Below, piece after piece: positions 2,151 through 27,900 of a stretch of 29,062 nt of DNA; positions within the stretch are counted from its first letter, which is position 1; each line of letters begins with the position of its first letter. A program made the position numbers and the translations under genes. A model generated the notes under the pieces. It saw only the letters and a list, made by a program, of their open reading frames with translations, ran no database searches and was not told where the DNA came from. The DNA lies in the IMG/VR virus record IMGVR_UViG_3300030109_003851, positions 1-29,062 of that record. One strand, 5' to 3'. The DNA is from a virus.

Positions 2151-3629
2151 TTAACTAAAGTTCTTGCTCAGGCTTGCAAGGTAATTTGTGCCATCGTAAA
2201 ATATGGTCATGACATCTATTGAATTGGCGGCTGTGCTCAAAGTTTTTTCACCTCCCGCAAATTTCATTGTGCTACTGAGTGTTCTATTACCAGTTCCGTC
2301 CTGTGTGATGATCAGTGTTAATGAATCACCGTTTGCAACATTTGATAGTGCGTTCAATGTAAGGTTATTGTTCAATGTCATCTTTTGCACACTGCCGTTG
2401 TTGGGATCTGGTGTAAGTGTACCACTTGTTGTGCCAAGATCATTTATAATCTCTCCATAATTTTTTATTGCCATGTTGGTCAACTGCTGATCGTTCATGT
2501 TGAGAGTTGCACTCAATTGTGTTTGACTAATTGTGAATTCACCTGCAGAATCTGGTTGTGTGACTGTGATATTGTCACCGCCTGTGATATTTGAACTGCC
2601 ACCTGTGACATCATTTGTGATAGTCAGCACATCACCACTCATAGAAGTGGTAATACCTGTACCACCCCTTATCTCCAATGTGTCATTGGTTGCGTTTGCA
2701 GTTGTGCTACCTGAATCTCCTTGGAAGGTCACAAAAACATTTGGTGCACTTCCTTCGTTGCTCCAACTTAACACACCTGAACCATTTGTTTTTAAAACTT
2801 GTCCATTGCTACCATCCGCATTGGGCCATTTCTGACTGTTAAGGTAAATGTGTCCATCGTCACCTGAATTACCCGCTGAATCTGTATTGGTTACCGTGTT
2901 GATATAAATGCTTCTTAAACCTGCATCAAAATAGATACATTCAGCATTTAAATTTTCTTGATTAGGTTCACCTGCTGAATCGCTTAATAATTGTGCAGGA
3001 TCGCCTCCATTTAGATTGCCTCCTATGTTTGAACCTATGTAAAAATCTTCTCCACCAGTTCCTATAGACGCAACAGGAAAACTTGCATTATCAGTTGCCT
3101 TGGTTGCGGTTATGCGGTTTAGTCTTACCTCTATCCCGTTATTACCAATACCTGTACCAGACAACGTCACTTGCGATGTTGCAAATGAATATGTTTCTTT
3201 ATTATTACCACTGGATCTACCTGCGGCAATAATTTGTACTGGATTGTCTGTGTCTGCCCTTGAAAAAACTTTTATTTCTGATCTGTTGAATTCATCTGCT
3301 TCATTGGTTGACATTCTTACAACATCTACACCCTCAGAATCTTCACTTTGGAATTCAATTAAGCCTTGCACTTGTCCAGCACTGTCATCTGTAATTGTAT
3401 CACCAAATAATATTGGATTTGTTACCCTGTCGTCAGTTCCAACTTCTAATCTGCCGTTGGATGCGTTGTATTTCAACACACTGTCATTGGCAATGCCTGT
3501 GGTATCCACAAAGTCAACTATATCGTTGACTGCTTGACTCATTGTGTGCAGTTCTGCTCTAGATTCCGCTATGCTGTCTGCCGCGTTGTCAAATTTTGTT
3601 GATTCTGGTTTGTTAGTTGGCCATGCCAT
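2151..3629 (-). CDS. Tail fibre protein with W-module and shared C-terminal beta module (492 aa)
   Basis: This is the largest fibre in the left cluster. The N-terminus MAWPTNKPESTKFDNAADSI matches the attachment-type module of the 143- and 165-aa proteins. The middle (about 60-380) is Gly/Asn/Ser/Thr-rich with many short beta-strand repeats such as GGTGITTS and NITGGDNITVTQ. The last ~100 residues (QDGTGNRTLSSTMKFAGGEK, then LSTAANSID, ending SLSKNFS) repeat almost exactly at the end of the 377-aa fibre and more distantly in the 165-aa one. Four DSAG tetrapeptides lie at plus positions 2541, 2871, 2970 and 3375. Host recognition is inferred. The ATG is one base after the stop of the 252-aa gene (TAATATG), and GGAGG is too far upstream to be a good site, so coupling is likely. 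Confidence 0.7.
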   Translation of the reverse strand: MAWPTNKPESTKFDNAADSIAESRAELHTMSQAVNDIVDFVDTTGIANDSVLKYNASNGRLEVGTDDRVTNPILFGDTITDDSAGQVQGLIEFQSEDSEGVDVVRMSTNEADEFNRSEIKVFSRADTDNPVQIIAAGRSSGNNKETYSFATSQVTLSGTGIGNNGIEVRLNRITATKATDNASFPVASIGTGGEDFYIGSNIGGNLNGGDPAQLLSDSAGEPNQENLNAECIYFDAGLRSIYINTVTNTDSAGNSGDDGHIYLNSQKWPNADGSNGQVLKTNGSGVLSWSNEGSAPNVFVTFQGDSGSTTANATNDTLEIRGGTGITTSMSGDVLTITNDVTGGSSNITGGDNITVTQPDSAGEFTISQTQLSATLNMNDQQLTNMAIKNYGEIINDLGTTSGTLTPDPNNGSVQKMTLNNNLTLNALSNVANGDSLTLIITQDGTGNRTLSSTMKFAGGEKTLSTAANSIDVMTIFYDGTNYLASLSKNFS

Positions 3630-4398: not shown

Positions 4399-6783
4399 CT
4401 ATGGAAATCCTGTGCTGGATCCTGATAAACCGTGTGTGTGTTGCACATAATTTAAGAATCCTTCCAAGCCATCGTCTTTTAATTTTTTGCCTTGCAATAC
4501 ATATTCAAAACCTCCTGTTGGCATATTTGTACCAGACAAATCGCCCCCAATTCTAAATTCTTCTTCAGGACCAGCACCTGTTCTTATGCCTCTTGCAAAC
4601 ACAGTCAATCCCTTAACCAAAGGCAATCTCACAAACCCTCCAGTGCTTTGGAAAGTTCTTGTGAACACTGTGCCTTGATCTGTTCCCTGTGTTTCAAAAG
4701 ATGGATTCATACGACTAAAAAATAAATTTACTGCCTCAAAGAATAATCCATTTAATCCGCCATGTCTACCACCAAATTCAATACGCATTGCATTCACTGA
4801 AGATTCCGCTGGTAAGTTTAAAAGTATTTCTAAAACATTGCATCTAATGTTTGTACTGCCATTTCTTAACAATGCAATTTTGTCTGAACCTCCTTGTTGT
4901 ATTTTCCAACAATATCCGTTTTCTAATTGACCAGATCCAGTATCACCCGCTGACCTCTTAACAAGTGGACTGGTTGGTGGAAAAGTTATTTTGTCTTGTA
5001 CATAAATTTTGCCTGAAAAACGAAAGTTAGATGCTGGATTTGCCGCCAATGGCAAAAATGGTGCATGAAAAGCCGTCAATGAAGGTTTCTTGATTGGTTC
5101 ATAAGCAGGTGGTGGTGTTGGTGTTGGTGTTGGTCCCGCTGAATCTTCTGGTGTAGGCCCTGGTGGCAAAATACCTTTTGGTGGATCGCTCACAGGTCTC
5201 TGCAAAGGTCTACCTGCATAGTAATCTGGTAAGAACACTGTGGGTGGTATCTCCACTTGTGGCTGTGTCACATAAGGATAATGTGTGGCTGTGTGTTCAA
5301 CACCTTCTATCTGTATCAATCCTGTGTTGGTCAGTTTCATATCAACCACTCTAAATGTCTTGTTGGATAGATCCAAAATATCTTCTGTTATTCTTATGAT
5401 GTCACCTGGTTCAACATCAAATAATTCTTGTGTGCCTGTAAAACTTATGGTTCTTTGTGCCCTTGATTTGTCATAAATCATTCTTGCCAAATCTTGAGCC
5501 ATGTATTTGCAAGTCAGTGTTGGAAAAGTAAATTCTCCTGTTAATTCTTCATCGTCATCAATTGCTTGATCGCCCGCCGTGCTATGTACTGCCTGTTGGC
5601 TGGTAAATTCAAGATCAGGATCCACATAATTCACAAACACTTGGTTAAATTTAGTTTGTTTGGTTTCACCACCTAATGAAATTTCTCCTGTTATAAAGAA
5701 ATTGCTTACATCAAATGCTATATCAATCGTACTTGATGTGATGTCTGTGGCATTGCCGCCATCTTCAACTTTTAATTTGTATCTGCCATCTATGAAAGGC
5801 ATGATGCTTCTACATCCGCCCACCAATGTTTTTACATTATCAATTAATTTTGATTCTGGAGTTAATACAGCATTGCAAGTGAATGCAAAACTGCTGTGTG
5901 CAGAATTAGAATCATATGTCACGATTTGATTAAATTTTGTTGCCGCTATTCTAAAACTTTCTGTGTGTATCTGTTCTTTTTTCAATCCTAATCCATATCT
6001 TGGATTCATCATATAATCCAATAAACAATTTGCAGGATTAGTAGCAGGTCTATTGGTAGACAGTTGATGATATGATTTAGTTAAATCTGCGTAGTCGTTT
6101 GGCAAGTCCACAGTGTTTGCATCAACACTTGAAACATCAAAAACTTCTTTGCCAAACACATCAAATTGTATCTGAGGCACACCACCCTGGAATGGTTGTG
6201 AATCAATCTCTGCCTGTGTTGCATTTTTCCATTCAAATCTAAATGCCGCATAGGCAACACCAGGCATCTTTCTTATTTTGCCTGTGGCGTTCCATGATGG
6301 AGATTCATTTGCTAAATCACTTTCAACTTGATCTTCCTTACCATTAAATATCTGGAACTTTATTCTGTTGGCATATCTACCTGTCGTGGTTGTGATTTCA
6401 GCGCCATGTGTATAAGTTTGTGAAGTGCCTGGATGTGGTAATAATTCGTTGTCGTCTAATTTAATTCTATGTACACCTGCAATCTCACCTTCACATATGG
6501 CATAAACCACATGGAGAAACTGATTGCTTTTCCCATCTGTCTCAACATGGACAATCGTACCACCAACCCTTCTGAAACCATACACAATAGGTATGCCTAT
6601 GTTTGTGCCTGATTTGGTAATTTTTACGCCTTGTGCAATGCTGTCTGCAGAAACGTCAGGTGTTTCAATGTTGAAAGGTTTTATTACAAAACTAAAAGCA
6701 TCACCCACAAAACCAATGATACCTTTTATTACTTTTTTAAATGCTCTTTTTATTTTGTCTATAGGTTTTCTAAAAAATGACAT
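4399..6783 (-). CDS. Tail tip attachment / central fibre protein, lambda J-like (794 aa)
   Basis: The long protein closes the tail-tip module, the place of lambda J and of host-specificity proteins. Residues 1-35 form a basic amphipathic helix (KIKRAFKKVIKGIIGFVGDA). Residues 50-90 hold the motif IPIVYGFRRVGGTIVHVE typical of the J N-terminal domain, and the next ~400 residues have the usual beta-rich hub pattern. These include the late segment DVEPGDIIRIT that marks the phage tail protein domain common to J proteins. A Pro-rich linker (about 520-570, GPTPEDSAGPTPTPTPPP) separates a C-terminal domain of ~220 residues that probably carries specificity. It has one DSAG, inside the linker. Its ATG overlaps the GNAT stop (TAATG). 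Confidence 0.85.
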   Translation of the reverse strand: MSFFRKPIDKIKRAFKKVIKGIIGFVGDAFSFVIKPFNIETPDVSADSIAQGVKITKSGTNIGIPIVYGFRRVGGTIVHVETDGKSNQFLHVVYAICEGEIAGVHRIKLDDNELLPHPGTSQTYTHGAEITTTTGRYANRIKFQIFNGKEDQVESDLANESPSWNATGKIRKMPGVAYAAFRFEWKNATQAEIDSQPFQGGVPQIQFDVFGKEVFDVSSVDANTVDLPNDYADLTKSYHQLSTNRPATNPANCLLDYMMNPRYGLGLKKEQIHTESFRIAATKFNQIVTYDSNSAHSSFAFTCNAVLTPESKLIDNVKTLVGGCRSIMPFIDGRYKLKVEDGGNATDITSSTIDIAFDVSNFFITGEISLGGETKQTKFNQVFVNYVDPDLEFTSQQAVHSTAGDQAIDDDEELTGEFTFPTLTCKYMAQDLARMIYDKSRAQRTISFTGTQELFDVEPGDIIRITEDILDLSNKTFRVVDMKLTNTGLIQIEGVEHTATHYPYVTQPQVEIPPTVFLPDYYAGRPLQRPVSDPPKGILPPGPTPEDSAGPTPTPTPPPAYEPIKKPSLTAFHAPFLPLAANPASNFRFSGKIYVQDKITFPPTSPLVKRSAGDTGSGQLENGYCWKIQQGGSDKIALLRNGSTNIRCNVLEILLNLPAESSVNAMRIEFGGRHGGLNGLFFEAVNLFFSRMNPSFETQGTDQGTVFTRTFQSTGGFVRLPLVKGLTVFARGIRTGAGPEEEFRIGGDLSGTNMPTGGFEYVLQGKKLKDDGLEGFLNYVQHTHGLSGSSTGFP

Positions 6784-7256
6784 TATAACTCCTTAACATA
6801 CATATTGCCGCACCATTTCATGCCTTTCATTTCAAAATATTTACTTGCACGATTAACATAATCTTCATCAACATTATAATCTGTGTCAAACATGAACACA
6901 CCACCAAACATAAGTTCAATGTCGTGATCACGAAGATAATCTTCTATCTGATCTAAAAATTTATGACTGCTTCTTTTGTGTCTATATTCTGGATGTATGT
7001 AAAATACTTCTATGATGCCAACACCAATCTCGTTCCACGTCATTTCACTTAAACTGATCACGGCATATCCAACTGCATTACCATCTTTGCGATATATCAG
7101 TATGTTGCTGGTGTTTTCAATCAATTTTTTCCTTGTGACCTGCATTGCCGTTTCAACATCAAAGTCCAACTTGCCTTTCAGTTTGGCTTCTTCCGCATGG
7201 TTACGATATAAATTTTGTAATGATCTAAAATCTTCTATTGTGGCTTGTTTCATCAT
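6783..7256 (-). CDS. GNAT-family N-acetyltransferase (157 aa)
   Basis: The start is ATG 7256, sharing its A with the TAA of the 192-aa gene. An extension to 7271 is unlikely. The sequence follows the GNAT fold: MKQATIEDFRSL at the start, a central acceptor region, VGYAVISLSE (strand 4, about 67-76), then IGVGIIEVFYIHPEYRHKRS (about 82-101). Here the IHPEYRHKRSS stretch is the pyrophosphate-binding motif A, with the usual Q/R-x-x-G-x-G/A degenerated to YRHKRSS. A C-terminal FEMKGMKWCGNMYVKEL strand follows. Substrate unknown. It sits between tail-tip genes, where related phages often place an NlpC/P60 cell-wall peptidase. It may be a virion-modifying or host-modifying enzyme carried with the tail operon. 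Confidence 0.75.
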   Translation of the reverse strand: MMKQATIEDFRSLQNLYRNHAEEAKLKGKLDFDVETAMQVTRKKLIENTSNILIYRKDGNAVGYAVISLSEMTWNEIGVGIIEVFYIHPEYRHKRSSHKFLDQIEDYLRDHDIELMFGGVFMFDTDYNVDEDYVNRASKYFEMKGMKWCGNMYVKEL

Positions 7257-7834
7257 TATTTGAGTCCCCATTTTATTTCAGATAGTGTTTCATGTGCAAA
7301 TTCCATGCTGTCATCTGTTGGATGTTCTCTATGAAAATTTGTCTGGTTTGTTCGTCTACCATTCTTCCTGTTAAAATTTACAAATTGACTGCTGACCTGC
7401 AGTGTGACATCTGCTGTGGTTTGTTTGTTGTTTACTTGATAACCTGCCACTTTTCCTTTGAATAATAGGAAAGCATTTTCACCTGCTGAATCTCCAAACA
7501 ACAGATTGGTTGCAGGATCAATAAATCCACGATGTATTGAGACAGGTTTGTTTATAATACTTGATGCGGCAAAATTTTGTACATTTGCCAATGTTAAAGC
7601 ACTGATTGAAATGCTGACAGAACTAATCTGTACAGCACTGTTTAATTGTGTTTCACTCACAGCAATAAATTCACCTTGTGCTGAATAAGTGTTGCCCTCA
7701 TAGGTCAAATTGAATGGATTGTCTGTGTATCTCACAGTGGTGCCGTCTGCCTGTTGCAGTTCCAACAATAGCACACTGATAAAAGTGTTGCCTGATAGAT
7801 AGGTGTTTAGTGCATCACTAAATTCACGAGGCAT
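7256..7834 (-). CDS. Tail-tip protein, DUF2163/DUF1833-like (192 aa)
   Basis: The protein opens with REFSDALNTYLSG, then ISVLLLELQQADGTTVRYTD, typical of the small baseplate/tip proteins that precede the J protein in long-tailed phages. The middle contains paired beta strands (SAVQISSVSISISALTLANV). The C-terminus ends with RRTNQTNFHREHPTDDSMEF and IKWG, resembling the end of the DUF2163/DUF1833-type tip proteins where 'I-x-W-G' closes the chain. It has one DSAG in the loop LFGDSAGENAF (plus 7481). TAATG junctions link it on both sides. The order TMP, 213 aa, 192 aa, GNAT, J is the standard tail-tip order. Exact family assignment is by pattern only. Confidence 0.65.
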   Translation of the reverse strand: MPREFSDALNTYLSGNTFISVLLLELQQADGTTVRYTDNPFNLTYEGNTYSAQGEFIAVSETQLNSAVQISSVSISISALTLANVQNFAASSIINKPVSIHRGFIDPATNLLFGDSAGENAFLLFKGKVAGYQVNNKQTTADVTLQVSSQFVNFNRKNGRRTNQTNFHREHPTDDSMEFAHETLSEIKWGLK

Positions 7835-12923: not shown

Positions 12924-13772
12924 TTATACTTGGTTGTCCCCAATTATACCAACGCCATATGCGTCAACAAGTTCTGAAACTCCAAATGCGTGTGTTCCAA
13001 TCAACTCAGTTGATCTTGCAGATGCATTTCTTTCAGTTTCAAGTCTGAATGGTCTTTTGTTTACATATGCAAGTGCATCTCTTGAGAAAGCCGCACCAAT
13101 AACGCCACCTGCTGATGGATCGTTAGAGATGTTTGAACTTTCAAAGATTTGCATTCCTGCAAGTGTTCCAATGAAACCGTCTCTTAATGCTTGGTTACCA
13201 ATGTCAGATAAAGAACCCATGTTAGTGTTCCCTGTACCTGCTAATTGTTGTTTAAGCGCCATTGCTTGGAATGGTGCCAACACACAATAGTATGGTCCTG
13301 GTGCATTGTTGTTTCTTAATGTTGCCGCCGCTTGGAAGATCACAGATGCAGTAATTTCTGCCGCGCCTGAACCCACAGTGCCTGAAAAGCCTGCGAATAA
13401 ATTCGCTAAGTCTTGATCAACTTTTGCCGCGATGCCGTCTCCAATTTGTCTACCTACAGCCGCTTGTACGTCTAAAGAAGCAGATTCTTTTGTGAAATCT
13501 GTTAATTCAACGCCAACACCAATTTCAGCACACGTCACATCTTTACCTGTTGGGTTAAATGTTGTCATTGTGCTTATGTCAGTGCCTTCTACAAGTGCGC
13601 CTGCTGATACAACTGGAATTACAGGAATAGAGGCTGTTAAACCTGGTGTTCCTGATAGGTCGTAGTTTGCCACAAGTGGTCTGATTACTGTTTGTTCACT
13701 TAAAGTAAAGACAGCCGCTTGCGATATATTTTCAAACAGTTCTACTGTTTCTGAAGTAGTTGTTATAGCCAT
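12924..13772 (-). CDS. Major capsid protein (HK97 fold, 282 aa)
   Basis: The protein is 282 residues and lacks an obvious long delta or scaffolding domain; a separate scaffold gene precedes it. Landmarks: MAITTTSETVELF opening, then TVIRPLVANYDLSGTPGLTA (about 29-48) and VPVVSAGALVEGTDISTMTT. It also has VELTDFTKESASLDVQAAVG (about 88-107), an Ala/Gly-rich central helix region, the A-domain-type stretch NAPGPYYCVLAPFQAMALKQ (about 155-174) and a C-terminal SELVDAYGVGIIG. This composition and length fit HK97-fold capsids of small marine siphoviruses. AAGGAG precedes the ATG by 8 bases. A strong terminator follows. Confidence 0.9.
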   Translation of the reverse strand: MAITTTSETVELFENISQAAVFTLSEQTVIRPLVANYDLSGTPGLTASIPVIPVVSAGALVEGTDISTMTTFNPTGKDVTCAEIGVGVELTDFTKESASLDVQAAVGRQIGDGIAAKVDQDLANLFAGFSGTVGSGAAEITASVIFQAAATLRNNNAPGPYYCVLAPFQAMALKQQLAGTGNTNMGSLSDIGNQALRDGFIGTLAGMQIFESSNISNDPSAGGVIGAAFSRDALAYVNKRPFRLETERNASARSTELIGTHAFGVSELVDAYGVGIIGDNQV

Positions 13773-13793: not shown

Positions 13794-14510
13794 TTAGATC
13801 CTGTTCACGCCTTTTTCACGCATTAACTTTTTGTAAAGTTCGCGATCTGCAGGCTTGGTCAGATCTAACTTGTTTATATCAGTTTGTATTGTTGTCCCTT
13901 GCTTGCCTTCACCTGCTCCAGTGCCAGAACCTGTTGGTCCTGCTGAAACGAAGTGTGGGTTCGCTTGTAGAAACTCTGTCACCAAGTCTTTCACTTGTAT
14001 AGGCTCGCCTTTGTCGTTGTATCTGACTTGCCCTGTTTTTGTGTCTATCACATCAACTGATCCTGCTTCGTTCAATTTTAGTTGACCCTTTAGCAATTGG
14101 CTCACTTGTTGTGGGTTGACTGCTTTTGCATTTGATGCCTCTCCTAACAATGCTCCGTCAATCTTGATTGTAGTCAATTCTGCTTGATATTGAGTGATTG
14201 TTGAGTTGAATTTTTCTGCTTGTTCTTTAAGCACCTTTTCAAACTCGCCTCTCTTCTCTAGATCAGCCTGTCTTGACTTCTCCTCTTTCTTGACTAGATT
14301 TTGATAGTGATCAACATCTACTCCAGCATACTTTTTTTCAAAGTTTGCTCTTTGCCTCGCCAATCTATCTTCAACAATTTTGTCTATATCTTGTTGATCA
14401 AATTTGCGTGGTTCAGTCGTTTCTACAGAGACTGGTTTTGTCTCTACCTGCGTTTCTATTCTTTCAGGTGCAGTTTCCTGAGATTGTACCGCTTGTGTTT
14501 CTGCGTTCAT
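13794..14510 (-). CDS. Capsid scaffolding protein (238 aa)
   Basis: The start is ATG 14510 (MNAETQAVQSQE), with GAGGA 8 bases before it. A longer frame to 14567 runs through the palindrome and lacks support. The sequence is highly charged and helical: an acidic, Glu/Thr/Gln-rich N-terminus, a coiled coil from about 40 to 130 (KFDQQDIDKIVEDRLARQRA and ADLEKRGEFEKVLKEQAEKF), and a C-terminal Gly/Thr stretch leading to a basic end (YKKLMREKGVNRI). Acidic coiled coil plus basic C-terminus is the form of phage scaffolds, where the C-terminus binds capsid protein. It is immediately upstream of the capsid gene. No protease domain is seen. Confidence 0.85.
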   Translation of the reverse strand: MNAETQAVQSQETAPERIETQVETKPVSVETTEPRKFDQQDIDKIVEDRLARQRANFEKKYAGVDVDHYQNLVKKEEKSRQADLEKRGEFEKVLKEQAEKFNSTITQYQAELTTIKIDGALLGEASNAKAVNPQQVSQLLKGQLKLNEAGSVDVIDTKTGQVRYNDKGEPIQVKDLVTEFLQANPHFVSAGPTGSGTGAGEGKQGTTIQTDINKLDLTKPADRELYKKLMREKGVNRI

Positions 14511-14570: not shown

Positions 14571-14578
14571 TATTTATT
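14571..14578 (-). promoter_or_regulatory. AATAAATA late-promoter-like motif before scaffold
   Basis: The motif overlaps the stop codon of the basic 53-aa gene and lies 61 bases before the scaffold ATG at 14510. The gap between these genes contains no other gene. Predicted RNA start near 14565. Confidence 0.4.
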
Positions 14579-14738
14579 ATCTTCTTTTCTTTTTGCCTTT
14601 AGACATTCCGCCTCTTTTGCCTCTTCTGGACATTCCAGATCTTTTTTTTCCTCTTGTAGCCATTCTAGTTCTCCTTCTGCGTGGACTAATCTGTTTAGTG
14701 AATAGTTCCGCTGTTTGTACACTGGTTGTTATCGCCAT
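14577..14738 (-). CDS. Basic head-region mini-protein with capsid-like N-terminus (53 aa)
   Basis: An open frame of 53 codons starts at ATG 14738, ten bases inside the end of the 85-aa gene, with GGAG 9 bases before. The first 13 residues, MAITTSVQTAELF, match the capsid opening MAITTTSETVELF at 9 of 13 positions, though the DNA has diverged. An Arg-rich joint (PRRRRTR) follows. A 28-residue tail with 14 Lys/Arg is then built from three imperfect repeats (RGKKRSGMS, RRGKRGGMS, KGKKKRR). A second ATG at 14663 also has GGAG 7 bases before it and would make the tail alone. The tail resembles small protamine-like peptides. A head-interior or DNA-compacting role is inferred only. Confidence 0.6.
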   Translation of the reverse strand: MAITTSVQTAELFTKQISPRRRRTRMATRGKKRSGMSRRGKRGGMSKGKKKRR

Positions 14739-14986
14739 GCTTTCATGCTCCAATACGCAGGTGACAATGTTTTTTGTCCTTTAACTTTGTCCAACACTGC
14801 TCCCATTCGTGCAAGGAACGATCGCTGTCTAACAGGATTGTTCTTTTTGATAGTCATACCTTTTTGTCCATAGTTTATTTTTTTGACATTTCCAGTTTTC
14901 TTATCACGCACAAATACTTTAAACTTTTTTACATCACCTCTTGATGGTGTGTTTAATTTTACAGTTCTACCTTGATACTTTGCCAT
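14729..14986 (-). CDS. Small basic head-region protein (85 aa)
   Basis: Starts MAKYQGRTVKLNTPSRGDVK, continues KKFKVFVRDKKTGNVKKINY and ends KTLSPAYWSMKAWR. This is a conserved small-protein family seen in marine phages near the capsid genes, with 'R-G-D-V-K-K-F-K-V' and a C-terminal 'YW-x-x-K-x-W'. Function unknown. It is strongly basic. The ATG has no Shine-Dalgarno; the 21-codon frame at 14967-15032 overlaps its start and may carry ribosomes into it. It is part of a run of five small basic genes between portal and scaffold. Confidence 0.72.
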   Translation of the reverse strand: MAKYQGRTVKLNTPSRGDVKKFKVFVRDKKTGNVKKINYGQKGMTIKKNNPVRQRSFLARMGAVLDKVKGQKTLSPAYWSMKAWR

Positions 14987-15034: not shown

Positions 15035-15271
15035 TTATCTCCTCTTTCTTAAGTCAGTGTCATGTCTTCTACTGCCTCTTAAAAATGAATTTACTCTTGC
15101 CATTGCCCATTGTTGCATTCCTATACCAGGTCTTGATCCCGCTGTTAGAAAAGCGCCTTGACCTCTTCTGAAAACTTTTGCCAGTGTGCCGTATGTGTAT
15201 CTACTTTTTTCTGCTTTTGTACGCAAAGACTTTTGCACACCTGCATTCAATTGTTTACGATGCTTTGCCAA
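15035..15271 (-). CDS. Small basic head-region protein (78 aa, TTG start)
   Basis: The start is TTG 15271, with AGGAG 8 bases upstream and inside the end of the 63-aa gene (17-base overlap). No in-frame ATG exists nearby. The centre reads KVFRRGQGAFLTAGSRPGIG, then MQQWAMARVNSFLRGSRRHD, with a basic end (LRKRR). This 'R-G-x-G-A-x-x-x-x-x-R-P-G-x-x-x-x-x-W-A' pattern recurs in small marine phage proteins near the portal, function unknown. It may act in the head interior or bind DNA. Confidence 0.68.
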   Translation of the reverse strand: MAKHRKQLNAGVQKSLRTKAEKSRYTYGTLAKVFRRGQGAFLTAGSRPGIGMQQWAMARVNSFLRGSRRHDTDLRKRR

Positions 15272-15446
15272 GTTTTATTCTCCTATTGATTAAACTTTGT
15301 GGTATCCTCTGTCCTGATCTTGCCATCTTGCCAATCCTTTTTATTAGATTAGCCAATTGCACTCTTTTACTGCCTTTCACACCACTAAGGTATTTTTTAG
15401 GTACTGTTGATTTTTTATCCTTAGGAACTCTGCGTCTCTTCACCAT
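15255..15446 (-). CDS. Small basic head-region protein (63 aa)
   Basis: The start is ATG 15446 with GGAG 7 bases before. The TTG at 15458 would add four residues without support. It has 21 Lys/Arg and only one Asp in 63 residues (predicted very high pI). The motif VPKKYLSGVKGSKR (about 15-28) is shared with small phage proteins of unknown function that sit after the portal gene. The start lies 26 bases inside the portal gene. It could be a DNA-binding head-interior protein or a small connector subunit. Confidence 0.68.
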   Translation of the reverse strand: MVKRRRVPKDKKSTVPKKYLSGVKGSKRVQLANLIKRIGKMARSGQRIPQSLINRRIKLGKAS

Positions 15447-16956
15447 TGTTATCTCCAAAGTAATTTTTGATTTCAGGATGTAGTTCCATTATCTGTTCAT
15501 TGGAATAACCTTCCTGTATCATCTCTCTCATGTGTTTAATCATGTCTTCTGGATTGTCCATTGGTGGATGTTGCATTTCAGTTTGTAAAGGTTGCGTATC
15601 GCTCTCCAATGTCTCCATAGTCTCTTCAGTAATTGTTTCGTAAATTCTTCTGTCTATTTCGTCATTTATTCTCGTGTCAGCGATGTTGGATTCTTTTGCA
15701 AGTTTAAGCATTGCTATATCGTTTGCTTTGTCTTGTATTGAAAATGATCTTGGATATTTTACAACACCATCATAAGTCATTCCTTGGAATAGTGCATACA
15801 ATCTCCATATTTGTTCTTCACAATGTTCTAGACACATTGCAAAGTCTGCCAGTTTGGCATTAAGCATTTGGAATTCAGTTTGTAATCCTATGCCTGATAA
15901 TCTTCTTGATTCAACAGATCTTATACCACCAACGCAAGCCATTCTGTCTATGGCATCAACTTTTTTCTGTATGCTACCCAATACAGCATCAATTGATGAT
16001 CCGTTTGGTTGTAGTAAGAATGGTTTAAGTCCTGGTTCCAAATTGTCTTCCATTGTGACTATGGCACCTGCACCCGCTGATGCATCTGTGCCTCTTGTTT
16101 TCACAAGTGTTGGATGATTTGTTAATTTTATGATGTCGTGTATTTCTGCTGTTTCTTCGTAGATGTTTTTCTGCATATCAGCAATGTCGCCAATTGCACT
16201 TACACCCACACCTCTTAAATTTGATCTTTGTGAATAACAAACCACAGCAGGTATCCTACCCAGTGTGTTTGGTATTGAATACATATATTCACCCTGTCTA
16301 TCTTTGGTTGTGTATCTGTACACATTTGTTTCTTCAGGTGTGTATTCTCTAATATATTGTTCGCCTTCTTGTATTTCTTCTTTTACTTTAAGATATGTAA
16401 GTTTGTAATAACCATTAGTTTCTCTTTCATATTGCCAGTCTAAAACATTTTCAGGTGTGAATAAACTTACATAAGGTCTTACTTCTTGATCAAGTTCGTC
16501 TGCCCTTGTGCTTACATTTGTGTTTGGTTTGTCTACGACTACCCAACAATTTCCATACACTTGGCTATGACGACTAACATCTTTCATAAAGGCATCAAAT
16601 GTTCTGCCATCCAAATCTGCATCATTGAAGAAAGCATCTAGTTGCGGATCCGCTTCTATTGATCCAAGATCTCTTTTCACTTCACGTCTAAACATGAATG
16701 AATTATAGATGCCAACTATTGCTTTAACATGATTGTCCAAAGCATTTGTTCTTAATCTCTTTTCGTAGTCTTCTCTTGACTCATACACAAAAGGTTCTAA
16801 ATATTTTCCGTAGAAATAATCAAATCCACCATTATAACTGTCTGCTAAAAATGTCCATCTGTTGTAATACAATTTGTATGCTTCATGTGTTGAAACAATG
16901 TATTCACTTGCAGAATACGGATCACCTTTTGTTAATCTATTTCTTATAACTGCCAT
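15421..16956 (-). CDS. Portal protein (511 aa)
   Basis: The gene follows terL and begins MAVIRNRLTKGDPYSASEYI, then YYNRWTFLADSYNGGFDYFY. Residues about 70-100 (RLRTNALDNHVKAIVGIYNS) and 120-150 match the portal pattern of the DUF4055-like family. The middle (about 215-330) carries the crown/wing beta-strand and helix region with VRPYVSLFTPENVLDW and IPAVVCYSQRSNLRGVGVSA. The C-terminal helices (about 400-500) are charged and end acidic. It forms the dodecameric ring that docks the terminase and the tail. Translational coupling through TAATG with terL. Confidence 0.88.
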   Translation of the reverse strand: MAVIRNRLTKGDPYSASEYIVSTHEAYKLYYNRWTFLADSYNGGFDYFYGKYLEPFVYESREDYEKRLRTNALDNHVKAIVGIYNSFMFRREVKRDLGSIEADPQLDAFFNDADLDGRTFDAFMKDVSRHSQVYGNCWVVVDKPNTNVSTRADELDQEVRPYVSLFTPENVLDWQYERETNGYYKLTYLKVKEEIQEGEQYIREYTPEETNVYRYTTKDRQGEYMYSIPNTLGRIPAVVCYSQRSNLRGVGVSAIGDIADMQKNIYEETAEIHDIIKLTNHPTLVKTRGTDASAGAGAIVTMEDNLEPGLKPFLLQPNGSSIDAVLGSIQKKVDAIDRMACVGGIRSVESRRLSGIGLQTEFQMLNAKLADFAMCLEHCEEQIWRLYALFQGMTYDGVVKYPRSFSIQDKANDIAMLKLAKESNIADTRINDEIDRRIYETITEETMETLESDTQPLQTEMQHPPMDNPEDMIKHMREMIQEGYSNEQIMELHPEIKNYFGDNNGEETQSS

Positions 16957-18197
16957 TATCTAACTCCTATTGTTGGCTTACTAACATTCCATCTCGTTGG
17001 ATTGGTTTGTTGTGCAACATCTCTTTTGATTGGCCATAAAAAGTCAACAAGGTAACCTACTGCGTCCGCCATGTGTTCTTGTCCATTTTTATCAATTATG
17101 GATGTGTTTGTTTTGTATTGTAAAGTTTCTAAACTCTTAATTGTTTGTTTGCATTTTGGATCTATAAACATCTGTCTTATACCTTTTGCGTTCTTTAACT
17201 TGCTATTTACTGCATTTACTCTGTCTCTAACTAAGGTATGACTTTGTCTTGCGAACACTTTGAATCCTGCGTTCTGCAAAATACTAATATCTGTCTTACC
17301 CCCAGCAGATGTTTTTCTTTGACGACCCGCAGGATCTGGAAAAATGGTAATTTTTGAATTTGGATATCTTCTGTTAAGTTCATCGCATACTTCTGCTGTG
17401 TTTGATCCCATTACATTTAATTCATCCACAAAAAACAAATTATTATTTTGTATAACACCAATTGCAACAGACATAGGATCAATGTTGAAGTCTATGCCCA
17501 CATACAATTCCTGTGTGTTAAAATTTTTACAATTTTTTATTACTTCTTCTCTGTCAAAATTATAATACACCATTCCTGAATATGTGTTGAATGTTGCTTC
17601 GTATTCTTGTGCAAATGTTCTTTCGTCAAGATCTCTTTTTGCATCTTCCAATTCCGCTTCATCCACTTGTCCACCATCTATTGTTTTGAAACTGAATGCT
17701 TCCCAGCCTTCTGTTGCTTTTGCCATTGTGTACATTTCATGACTGAATGATCCAACACCTTTGGGTGTGCCTATGAACAATGCTTTGCCTTTTCTATCTG
17801 ACAGTGTTGGGCGAAGACATGAAGTCCATAATTCTTTATCTAAATCTTGATATTCATCCATAACTAAAAAATCCAATCCTACACCTCTGAGTGCATCTTT
17901 GTTTTCTGCACCTTTCAAATGTATATGTGATCCTGACTTCAATCTTATTTTTAATTCTGCTTCATTGGTTTGATCAATCCATCTTAATTTTTTAAGCATA
18001 TCTTTCAAAGGATTCCACATTATGGTTTTGGCCATTCTGTAGGAAGGTGCAACATAGTACACTTCCTTATCTATATCTGCGGCGTGTCGCACCAACTCCA
18101 TCATGCTAACATAAGTCTTACCAAACCGTCTACCACAACTTGCTGTACGCATTCTTGCTGGTGAATTGAAAATAGATTGTTGTGCTGGAGTCAACAT
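16956..18197 (-). CDS. terL: Terminase large subunit
   Basis: The ATPase domain has Walker A GRRFGKT at residues 22-28, Walker B around 109-115 (LDFLVMDE, Asp114/Glu115) and the coupling motif FIGTPKG at about 141-147. The nuclease domain begins with VGIDFN, Asp236 being the first RNase H-like acidic residue. Later acidic residues are in IFPDPAG (about 300) and in the C-terminal ADAVGYLVDF (about 388). The 413 residues are within the usual range. This motor cuts and pumps DNA into the head. The start overlaps the terS stop by one base (TAATG). Confidence 0.96.
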   Translation of the reverse strand: MLTPAQQSIFNSPARMRTASCGRRFGKTYVSMMELVRHAADIDKEVYYVAPSYRMAKTIMWNPLKDMLKKLRWIDQTNEAELKIRLKSGSHIHLKGAENKDALRGVGLDFLVMDEYQDLDKELWTSCLRPTLSDRKGKALFIGTPKGVGSFSHEMYTMAKATEGWEAFSFKTIDGGQVDEAELEDAKRDLDERTFAQEYEATFNTYSGMVYYNFDREEVIKNCKNFNTQELYVGIDFNIDPMSVAIGVIQNNNLFFVDELNVMGSNTAEVCDELNRRYPNSKITIFPDPAGRQRKTSAGGKTDISILQNAGFKVFARQSHTLVRDRVNAVNSKLKNAKGIRQMFIDPKCKQTIKSLETLQYKTNTSIIDKNGQEHMADAVGYLVDFLWPIKRDVAQQTNPTRWNVSKPTIGVR

Positions 18198-18523
18198 TAT
18201 TTGTTCTCCTCTGGTTTTGTAAGTGCTGATAAAAATTCTCCCAATGGTAAAGGTTTCTTGTCATCCAAGTATTGTGGCTGATCTTTTTGTCCAAGATAGT
18301 TTTTACCCATGAACTGCAACATCTTTGGATCACCTTTCTCTGCCTTCTCCATCTGTAATTTTTTTATGTGTGCTTGACCTTGAAGTCTGCCCTCGTCTAT
18401 TACTTTCTTAAATTGTTTTCTAATAACTTTTATCGTGGTATTCATAACAGCCGCAATCTCCTTGTCATTGCATTGGTCAAATGCAAGTTGTCTTATCTGT
18501 TCTCTGTTAAGTTTTCTAGCCAT
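18197..18523 (-). CDS. terS: Terminase small subunit
   Basis: A 108-residue helical protein. Residues about 6-40 form a helix-turn-helix (REQIRQLAFDQCNDKEIAAV, then a recognition helix KVIRKQFKKVI). The segment KAEKGDPKMLQFMGKNYLGQ (about 60-79) is the hallmark of small terminases that read 'A-x-x-G-x-x-x-M-x-x-x-L/M-G-x-x-x-L-G-Q'. A charged end binds TerL. It recognises the packaging site, though none is identified here. Coupled to terL through TAATG and to the 109-aa gene upstream in the same way. Confidence 0.9.
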   Translation of the reverse strand: MARKLNREQIRQLAFDQCNDKEIAAVMNTTIKVIRKQFKKVIDEGRLQGQAHIKKLQMEKAEKGDPKMLQFMGKNYLGQKDQPQYLDDKKPLPLGEFLSALTKPEENK

Positions 18524-20382: not shown

Positions 20383-20899
20383 ATGTTTTGTTGATTCCAA
20401 TCAGCAAACGACCGCTGATGTTGAATGCACTAGATCCCAATGCCCTCTTCAATCCAAAGTACAATGCTGGTTTAGAACCATCATTATCTATTGTGACAGA
20501 CTCAATTGTTTGATTACTGCCGCTGTTGAAACTTGCATTTTGAAATGTGTTTAGAGCCTGGTTTGGACCTGATGAGGTTGATGTTGAATCCAATTGTGCG
20601 ACAACAAAACCTGCTTGGTCTGAACTGTTTGAACTGCTGTATGTGGGATGAGAGATCACTGTTAATTTTAATGTGCCTGATGTGGTCAGTGCGATCCCGT
20701 CACCGTTGGGATGATTTGTAACCCTCTGCACAATACTTTTTGGATCAGATCCAATTACATTCCAAGTGCCTGAACCATTGTTGCTCCATCTGTATTGATT
20801 GGAACTACCTCCTGCTGGATTTGGTCTTCCATTTGTGTCTTCAATTAAAACATCAAATTGGTTACCTACTATTGATAATAAAGGTGCTGTGAATGGCAT
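20381..20899 (-). CDS. Fibre-module protein (172 aa)
   Basis: No family recognised. The start overlaps the 165-aa stop (TAATG). The sequence opens MPFTAPLLSIVGNQFDVLIE and is rich in Ser, Asn, Gly and Thr. It has alternating strands (LTTSGTLKLTVISHP, about 72-86; FVVAQLDSTSTSSG, about 98-111) and a final YFGLKRALGSSAFNISGRLL stretch. DQAG in place of DSAG occurs near residue 94. It sits in the fibre cluster and is probably a structural fibre partner or chaperone-like subunit. Confidence 0.5.
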   Translation of the reverse strand: MPFTAPLLSIVGNQFDVLIEDTNGRPNPAGGSSNQYRWSNNGSGTWNVIGSDPKSIVQRVTNHPNGDGIALTTSGTLKLTVISHPTYSSSNSSDQAGFVVAQLDSTSTSSGPNQALNTFQNASFNSGSNQTIESVTIDNDGSKPALYFGLKRALGSSAFNISGRLLIGINKT

Positions 20900-21396
20900 T
20901 ATGACATATCCAACATGGCATTACCGTATAGGTTTGTGCCGTCAGATACGAAACATAAAACATCAACATCATTTGCACCTGTGGATAGTGTTGGTGCGTT
21001 GCCGTTTGGAAATTTATATTTTGAATCGTAAGCCAAAGTCCTGTTGCCCGTGCCGTCCTGTTTAACAATCAAGACGTATGTTGCTCCCGCTTCAATGTTG
21101 GTTGGGTTTGCTAATGTTGAACTTGCCGCCAATGTTAATTGTGCCACTTGATTGGCACCTAGGTCCCATGCAATACCACCTGAACTGTCATCTGTTGCAG
21201 TTAAGGTAGTCATGTTGAAATATTGTTGTTTGGAGTATTCGCCTTTGGTTGCGTAAGGTCCTGTGGCATCATAGAAGTCTATGATTGTGTTCACATTTGT
21301 AATATTTTGTAATATATCTGATCTTGCGTCTGATATTGAATCATTTGCGTTATCGCAATTGGTTGTTCCTGCTTTTGATCCTGATGGCCATGACAT
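20899..21396 (-). CDS. Fibre protein with both shared modules (165 aa)
   Basis: The N-terminus MSWPSGSKAGTTNCDNANDS continues ISDARSDI and matches the 143- and 492-aa proteins. The C-terminus YVLIVKQDGTGNRTLAYDSK and LSTGANDVDVLCFVSDGTNL matches the end modules of the 492- and 377-aa proteins. It is therefore a minimal fibre: attachment-type module plus end module with only a short middle. AGAGGAG precedes the ATG by 8 bases and AATAAATA lies 17 bases upstream. A DSSG variant replaces DSAG near residue 73. Confidence 0.65.
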   Translation of the reverse strand: MSWPSGSKAGTTNCDNANDSISDARSDILQNITNVNTIIDFYDATGPYATKGEYSKQQYFNMTTLTATDDSSGGIAWDLGANQVAQLTLAASSTLANPTNIEAGATYVLIVKQDGTGNRTLAYDSKYKFPNGNAPTLSTGANDVDVLCFVSDGTNLYGNAMLDMS

Positions 21397-22802: not shown

Positions 22803-23936
22803 CTATGCACTAAAGTTTTTTGAAAGGGACGCAAAATATGTGCCACTTGCAAATGTAATCGTCATTATGTCAATGCTGTTTGCCGCAGTTGATAAAGTTT
22901 TTTCTCCACCAGCGAACAACATCCTGTTGGCACTGTCTACATTGTCAGTAAATGTATGATTGCCTGATCCATCTTGTTCAAAAATTATTGAAATGGTTGC
23001 CCCTTCTGTTTCTGTTGCAAAGCCATTAAAATTAACATTACCAGTCAAAATCATTCTCTGTATAGGTCCATCTGTTGGCTCTGGTGTAAAGTTTGAATTA
23101 TAACTTGCTTCATTAATTTTTTCGTTGTATGTAATATTTTTTAAATTTGTTTTTCCAGAACCATTTGGTTGAATGTCTATGTTGCCGTTTGATACAGAAA
23201 CAATGTCATTGCCATTAACATCCAAGTTGCCACCCAGTTGTGGTGAACTGTCATTTGCAACACTGGCTATACCTGCTGATACTGTGTTTGTGATTACGAA
23301 ATCACCAGCACTGTCTGGATTGGAAATTGTTATACCTGTGCCTGCAGATAGTTTTACAAAACTTAAATCACCGTCTGCGTTTGTGACTATGAAATCATTA
23401 GCATTTGGTGATGTGCTTGGAAAAGTAAGTGTGTAAGATTGTCCTGCTGAATGGGGTGGTGATGCTAATTTAATACCATGTGAATTTGCTGAACAGTTTA
23501 ATTGTATTGTGCCATCTTCTGATGCACCATCTCCCTCAATTTCTACAACACCTGATCCATGAGGTGATAATTTTAGATTGGCATTTCCACTAGCAGTAAT
23601 AATTTTACTGCCATTGACATCAAGATTGCCACCCAGTTGTGGTGATGTGTCTGAAACTATATCTGCTAAAAATGTTGTGCCTGTGATAGTTAATATGGCT
23701 GTGCCTGTACTGTCAGCCGCGATTGCTGTGGTAATGTTTGTACCACCTTTTATTTCTAAAACTCCTGTTCCTTGTGCAACTCCTACAGTTGCATTGGTTG
23801 AATCTGCATCAACCTGTATGGCTTGAATTTTGCTTGTTAAGAGATCAACAAAGTTTCCATCCAACTCTGCGTGTGTAAGGGTTGAACCTTTGTTGGTTGC
23901 TCCTGTTTGATCTGTTGTTCTTAATGTTATTGTCAT
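22803..23936 (-). CDS. Tail fibre protein with GGNLDVNG repeats and shared end module (377 aa)
   Basis: The N-terminus MTITLRTTDQTGATNKGSTL, then ELDGNFVDL, is a common phage fibre opening. Two copies of SPQLGGNLDVNG (about 90-102 and 230-242) mark an internal repeat, each followed by a Gly/Ser shaft segment ending SPHGSG or QPNGSG. The last ~100 residues (FEQDGSGNHTFTD, MLFAGGEKTLSTAANSIDIM, SLSKNFSA) match the end of the 492-aa protein. One DSAG lies at plus 23304, at the same point (PDSAGDF) as PDSAGEF in the 492-aa paralogue. AAGGAG precedes the ATG. Confidence 0.75.
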   Translation of the reverse strand: MTITLRTTDQTGATNKGSTLTHAELDGNFVDLLTSKIQAIQVDADSTNATVGVAQGTGVLEIKGGTNITTAIAADSTGTAILTITGTTFLADIVSDTSPQLGGNLDVNGSKIITASGNANLKLSPHGSGVVEIEGDGASEDGTIQLNCSANSHGIKLASPPHSAGQSYTLTFPSTSPNANDFIVTNADGDLSFVKLSAGTGITISNPDSAGDFVITNTVSAGIASVANDSSPQLGGNLDVNGNDIVSVSNGNIDIQPNGSGKTNLKNITYNEKINEASYNSNFTPEPTDGPIQRMILTGNVNFNGFATETEGATISIIFEQDGSGNHTFTDNVDSANRMLFAGGEKTLSTAANSIDIMTITFASGTYFASLSKNFSA

Positions 23937-26907: not shown

Positions 26908-27900
26908 ATGATCAAGTGGGCACTTCCTTTACACATATCCTTTGAACCAATTCAATTGTGTAATGCAAAATGTTTTTGTTGTCCTTACACATTCTTAAGT
27001 GAGGATCCATCATACAAAGGAGTTCAGATGACCACTGAACAGATCACTGACCTCATCACACAATACGGAGCACTGGTAAAGAAATACAAAGTGCCCAAAT
27101 ACCATTGCACCATATCACCTTGGAGATACAGCGATCCATTGGTGCAACCCAACTTGCCTTTAATAATGCAATTGGCAGATGAAAACAACATAGGTGTAAA
27201 GATAACAACCAATGCAGTCAGTTTCACAAAGAAGATGTGTGAAACATTGCAGAGTCGTTTGCATATTCTTGGCAAAATACATATCTCTGTTATAGGACAC
27301 ACTGAACAGGAAGTATGGGATCAAATGAAAGTAAAGAAAAATAAAACATTGGAAAGATTGTTGTTTGTTAAAAACAATTATCCAGACATAAGCAAAAAAA
27401 TTCAAATAGGAATAAAACACAAAGACAACATCCGTGCATCTGATGAAACCATGCAACAATACCGTGAAGTCACATTGGGACGGGTAATGTCCAAGCAGGA
27501 ATGGATGCACAACAGATTGGGAGATGGAGATGGTGTGTGGCACAAACCCAAACACTTTGACATCACACCTGAACAATACATCAAAGGATGTTCAATGTCC
27601 AAGGGCAGGATCACAAGAGAGATGGAGATCATGGTGAACGGCGATGTGGTTCTGTGTTGCGATGACGCAGATGGCAAGACACACTATGGCAATGTGTTCA
27701 AGGATGGTCTACAAAATTGTTGGAGACAACTACAGAAAGAACATGAATTAATCTATGACAAAGAATACAGTGATGCAAAAAAACAATTGATATGCAACAC
27801 CTGTTCCAGAGGCAAGTTCCATTGGGACGGAAGATTAGAATACGACATCAAGCAGAAGACTTATCATCTATTGCAAAGGGTTCCAAGATGTGCGGTATAG
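26908..27900 (+). CDS. Radical SAM enzyme with SPASM-like C-terminus (330 aa)
   Basis: Cys18-x3-Cys22-x2-Cys25 (QLCNAKCFCC) binds the 4Fe-4S cluster that cleaves S-adenosylmethionine. The middle has the TIM-barrel elements (YHCTISPWRYSDPL; VKITTNAVSF; HISVIGHT). The C-terminal domain holds Cys228, Cys250, Cys251, Cys296 and Cys299 in the spacing of SPASM/twitch auxiliary clusters (GCSMSKG; VNGDVVLCCDD; ICNTCSRG). Such enzymes modify peptides, sugars or nucleotides; the substrate is unknown. The asparagine synthetase gene starts 13 bases before its end. No good Shine-Dalgarno is seen. Base composition changes within the gene from about 25% to 50% GC. Confidence 0.85.
   Translation: MIKWALPLHISFEPIQLCNAKCFCCPYTFLSEDPSYKGVQMTTEQITDLITQYGALVKKYKVPKYHCTISPWRYSDPLVQPNLPLIMQLADENNIGVKITTNAVSFTKKMCETLQSRLHILGKIHISVIGHTEQEVWDQMKVKKNKTLERLLFVKNNYPDISKKIQIGIKHKDNIRASDETMQQYREVTLGRVMSKQEWMHNRLGDGDGVWHKPKHFDITPEQYIKGCSMSKGRITREMEIMVNGDVVLCCDDADGKTHYGNVFKDGLQNCWRQLQKEHELIYDKEYSDAKKQLICNTCSRGKFHWDGRLEYDIKQKTYHLLQRVPRCAV

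Follow-up and report, generated by a model that had tools for sequence, protein, structure and literature searches.

A probable dual-start gene for a small basic peptide between the portal and scaffold genes of a tailed phage

Why does a marine tailed phage carry, just ahead of its scaffold gene, a 53-codon open reading frame (ORF) that begins like its major capsid protein (MCP) and ends as a chain of basic residues? The window analysed here is a virus record of 29,062 bases (G000), whose relatives are phage DSL-LC06 and the pelagiphages HTVC111P, 112P, 026P and 202P. Its host is uncertain, since a scan of genome contigs gave a single locus only (L209), in a Porticoccaceae MAG. On the minus strand the genes run from a small-terminase candidate through the large terminase, the portal, three basic proteins of 63, 78 and 85 residues and the 53-codon ORF to the scaffold and the MCP (Table 1); the counterpart of the scaffold gene is annotated as scaffolding in both DSL-LC06 and HTVC111P. 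Small phage proteins of the DUF5824 and DUF5754 types resemble the 53-aa protein in size, basic character and placement in the portal-scaffold interval, but have no sequence similarity to it.

Table 1. Features of the head-gene region of the window, in gene order.
Feature	Coordinates	Strand	Remarks
Small-terminase candidate	18197-18523	-	placement by position only
Portal protein	15421..16956	-	PHROG 145, E 2e-63
63-aa basic protein	15255..15446	-	PHROG 38321
78-aa basic protein	15035..15271	-	DUF5824
85-aa basic protein	14729..14986	-	weak DUF5754 match, PHROG 7595
Overlap between the long start and the stop codon of the 85-aa gene upstream	14729..14738	-	10 nt, ATGGCGATAA
53-aa long product	14577..14738	-	N-extension (residues 1-25) + basic tail (residues 26-53)
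N-extension, 25 codons	14664..14738	-	Thr/Ser-rich start like the MCP N-terminus; divergent, purifying selection in relatives
Internal Shine-Dalgarno (SD) AAGGAG	14671..14676	-	7 nt ahead of the internal ATG (14663); in frame, part of Arg-Arg-Arg-Arg
Proposed nested short gene, 28-aa basic peptide MATRGKKRSGMSRRGKRGGMSKGKKKRR	14577..14663	-	conserved SD + ATG; stand-alone in relatives
Scaffolding protein	13794..14510	-	PHROG 206, E 2.5e-15
MCP	12924..13772	-	HK97 fold predicted; residues 1-8 low confidence (disordered), helix 6-27

The ORF translates as MAITTSVQTAELFTKQISPRRRRTRMATRGKKRSGMSRRGKRGGMSKGKKKRR followed by a stop, and the MCP begins MAITTTSETVELF. As the initial annotation reported, the two agree at 9 of their first 13 residues (M, A, I, T, T, T9, E, L and F). 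Shuffling residues 2-13 reached this identity in only 13 of 200,000 trials and, of the 709 possible starts that the window contains, the MCP scored highest (39, with 26 for the runner-up), so the match is more than chance. The codons of matching residues differ at third positions (GCG/GCT, ACC/ACT, CTA/CTG, TTC/TTT), so the front is not a recent copy of the MCP, also as first proposed. M-A-I is partly dictated by the upstream gene, because the first 10 bases of the ORF coincide with the conserved ...AWR-stop end of the 85-aa gene. A sister phage (L002/L004) retains the gene (MAITTSTQTAALF...), 92% identical to that of the window, and it too shares 9 of 13 residues with its own MCP (MAITTTTETVELF). 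The other half of the protein is likewise as described: Lys and Arg make up 14 of the last 28 residues (50%), an Arg/Lys-rich low-complexity chain of the protamine-like kind. A Pfam search with the 53-aa protein gave no match, a PHROG search gave a single weak one (phrog_20322, E 0.57, unknown function), and tblastn gave no hit in annotated phages, an outcome probably due to masking of the tail by the low-complexity filter; literature searches turned up no description of this gene.

The main new result lies at the joint between the two halves. What had been taken for an Arg-rich joint is, at the level of sequence, an SD read as protein; an in-frame ATG follows it after 7 nt, a point that the initial annotation overlooked. 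Every one of the 23 fused sequences carries, 6-10 nt ahead of the tail Met, an SD match of 4 nt or longer, and matches of at least 5 nt occur in 83% of them compared with 5.8% of 3,153 control internal ATGs in long ORFs, in a scan that keeps the longest motif and among purine-rich Arg/Gly/Lys codons that themselves favour SD-like strings. The SD core is read in varied codon phases (GGA GGG, GAG GAG, GGG AGA, AGG AGA), where it encodes GG, EE, GR or RR. The amino acids of the joint thus differ across relatives (LGGQI, EETRI, GRDI, EGII, RRRRTR) while the SD stays. As a rule this internal SD is stronger than the one that serves the long start.

We then compared about 200 loci, obtained by MCP-based retrieval and tail-pattern searches; these are metagenomic contigs, some appearing under two locus ids, and the clusters drawn from them are not fully independent. 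Many loci encode a Lys/Arg/Gly peptide (for example, MAMRGGKKKKKKTRGGRRRK) about 900 bases ahead of the MCP start, and the portal-scaffold position of the gene is maintained, bearing out the expectation that the frame would be kept beside the scaffold gene in relatives. The tail itself has three settings. In some relatives it is a gene of its own, of 19-28 codons, preceded by an SD and, a short way upstream, by an in-frame stop (L020, L032, L033/L043, L046, L104, L116 and others). In 14 clusters, including that of the window, about 15-31 further codons precede it in the same frame as an upstream extension. In L036, L095, L131, L166 and L218, again with an SD, it is joined to another small protein, of GGYRWG type, which ends ...QAE[RK]QGRA. 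The initial annotation, which had tied the tail to capsid mimicry, missed the free-standing gene; with the tail free-standing elsewhere and an SD at the joint, the tail need not depend on such mimicry. Many marine phages conserve a tail gene next to the scaffold; it has acquired two different partners while retaining its own start, and at 19-28 codons it is short enough for gene callers to miss. In DSL-LC06 an unannotated 15-codon basic ORF, MKYKKKKPGRGGKKY (L008:5992-6039, plus strand), lies at the tail-gene position behind a TAAGGAG SD and is at most a weak candidate for a stand-alone tail. L117 has a degraded fused gene (MAVTGSSAIGGVVGR...MAMRGGKKKKND...) as well as a stand-alone tail near the scaffold, and so seems to carry two copies.

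We next asked whether the extension tracks the capsid protein of its own phage. Across the 14 clusters, extensions aligned better with the MCP start of their own phage than with those of others (18.6 compared with 15.3; p=0.0014). Among the MCP segments tested the effect was confined to residues 2-18. It was absent for residues 19-35, for four further segments of the MCP, for the N-terminus of the scaffold and for the gene that follows the MCP, and the C-terminus of the scaffold was borderline (p=0.03 before correction for nine tests). The likeness might instead reflect a composition bias in the start regions of highly expressed phage structural genes, with Ala, Thr and Ser following Met. The gene after the MCP often begins MAIT too. 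On an extension profile built without the window cluster, MCP starts averaged 1.2 compared with -8.1 for other long proteins, a difference to which composition contributes, with likely tail proteins among the top non-MCP matches. Yet shuffled extensions scored 13.9 (sd 0.6), well below the own-pair 18.6, and the gene after the MCP showed no own-pair effect for all its similar beginning. We consider composition bias a possible explanation of the likeness, short of a probable one.

A second reading takes the likeness at face value: the front would copy the N-terminal arm of the MCP, bind scaffold or MCP and bring the basic tail into the procapsid, with the internal start incidental. The rank of the MCP among the window's starts, the restriction of the own-pair effect to MCP residues 2-18 and the higher profile scores of MCP starts all agree with it. 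So do two details in relatives: in L030 the extension and its own MCP have TGVSG in common, and in L111 the matching Ser residues use unrelated codons (AGT and TCA), which fits constraint rather than copying. In L038, however, the codons of the shared TGVSG are identical at 14 of 15 nt, which fits a short copying event as well. Because synonymous codons differ in the window and in most clusters, we reject recent copying of the MCP start there; in L030 and L038 copying is possible. Against the second reading, the own-pair signal is carried by 3 of the 14 clusters (the window, L030 and L052): p rises to 0.06 without the window and L030, and to 0.33 when L052 is removed as well. The expected co-variation of the front with the local capsid start thus appears across the full set and fades without these three clusters, and because the signal depends on them we regard mimicry of the MCP start by the extension as suggestive rather than demonstrated.

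Structure adds to both sides. In phage SPP1 the scaffold binds the N-terminal helix of the MCP, through helix residues 15-26, and contact between scaffold and this helix is described as common to P22, T7 and 80-alpha procapsids (PMC6813328), so imitation of a scaffold-binding site is plausible. Foldseek assigns our MCP model (pLDDT 76) to the HK97 fold, and pLDDT is below 50 at residues 1-8; the residues shared with the 53-aa protein correspond to the disordered tip and the first helical turns, not to the helix body that would include the SPP1 contact. A model of the 53-aa protein itself gave no fold, at low confidence (pLDDT 59.5, pTM 0.15), the only helix being at residues 6-14. Since a purely capsid-mimicking protein would in addition leave the conserved SD and the stand-alone tails unexplained, we think this second reading rather unlikely as an account of the whole gene.

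Is the extension, then, a protein segment at all? In all 14 clusters it runs in frame with the tail without an intervening stop, and in most its length is nearly constant at about 29-31 codons; its consensus is M-x-V-T-T-S-x-S-x-x-x-x-I-G-E-R followed by a basic stretch, with a short extension lacking that stretch in L145, L147, L152 and L154. Over 14 sequence pairs pN/pS was 0.41 for the extension (95% 0.33-0.51) and 0.31 for the tail, indicating coding selection on both. The front is strongly divergent while the tail stays recognisable, which comes close to a front diverging freely beside a conserved 28-residue part, the pattern that the initial annotation itself named as speaking against its proposal. 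A further reading confines function to the short tail gene and makes the 25 codons before it a translated leader that couples translation and stays open by chance. It would suit the free-standing tails and the usual advantage of the internal SD over that of the long start, but is improbable given the selection on the extension and its steady length and frame.

Taken together, an SD at the joint, a tail that is free-standing elsewhere and an extension under selection indicate that this is probably a dual-start gene, a layout conserved across dozens of related phages. The two-part architecture, the conserved SD and the selected frame can be read from the sequences themselves, and from them it is very likely that both starts are in use: ribosomes starting at 14738 would make the 53-aa protein, and those starting at the internal SD and ATG (14663) the 28-aa basic tail alone. 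The tail is probably the older unit, a free-standing Lys/Arg/Gly peptide encoded beside portal and scaffold, and in one branch an upstream extension would have been fused to it in frame without loss of its ribosome-binding site. On balance, we favour a gene within a gene of the head region with 53-aa and 28-aa products and a role in the head of the following kind. The basic tail may bind nucleic acid inside the head or near it during assembly; its charge and position make a nucleic-acid role at this stage plausible, and we put the chances of binding itself at about even. Capsid addressing is a weaker proposal than the dual start: the extension of the long form may, tentatively, keep some copies at the capsid-scaffold interface, perhaps through its likeness to the MCP start.

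In the lambda-type holin dual-start motif, a small phage gene has two starts in one frame, both near its 5' end. The 53-aa gene resembles it in having two in-frame starts but has no membrane segment and stands in a head-gene context. Another parallel in layout is RpnL and RpnS, a gene within a gene with an internal translation start (PMC10327210), where, as proposed here, one frame gives two products, the shorter being the C-terminal portion, which has an SD and start codon of its own; function and proteins are other than here, and the phage short form is also a free-standing gene in relatives. T4 internal proteins have an N-terminal capsid targeting sequence (CTS), proposed to direct them into the prohead (PMC3012670), and share with the 53-aa protein an N-terminal segment proposed for prohead entry together with Lys available for DNA contact. 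They are larger than the 53-aa protein, and the Pfam and PHROG searches showed no sequence relation; nor is the CTS described in that paper as resembling the capsid start, unlike the front of the 53-aa protein. A broader conjecture, which we consider unlikely in full, is a family of head peptides in which one gene gives its basic peptide both free and in a form addressed to the capsid, the tag imitating the local MCP N-terminus and changing with it, so that the scaffold would draw a DNA-binding peptide into the procapsid in an amount governed by the two starts. If the long form is capsid-addressed, it would offer a simple route for peptide loading into the phage head and a way to test how scaffold distinguishes capsid from cargo.

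Several features elsewhere in the genome deserve mention. Three tail-fibre-like minus-strand genes (2151-3629, 20899-21396 and 22803-23936), at two places in the genome, have a similar C-terminal segment, which is NGDSLTLIITQDGTGNRTL...FAGGEKTLSTAANSIDVMTI in the first and occurs in related versions in the other two; two of the three also have a start similar to that of the ORF at 1613-2044. The tail module contains an acetyltransferase-like gene (PHROG 1249; 6783-7271, minus strand), which DSL-LC06 also has, after the hub gene, and acyltransferase-like genes lie at a similar place in HTVC111P, 112P and 026P. Among the plus-strand genes at the far end, that at 26908-27900 encodes a radical SAM/SPASM protein, with PF13186 above the cut-off and PF04055 below it.
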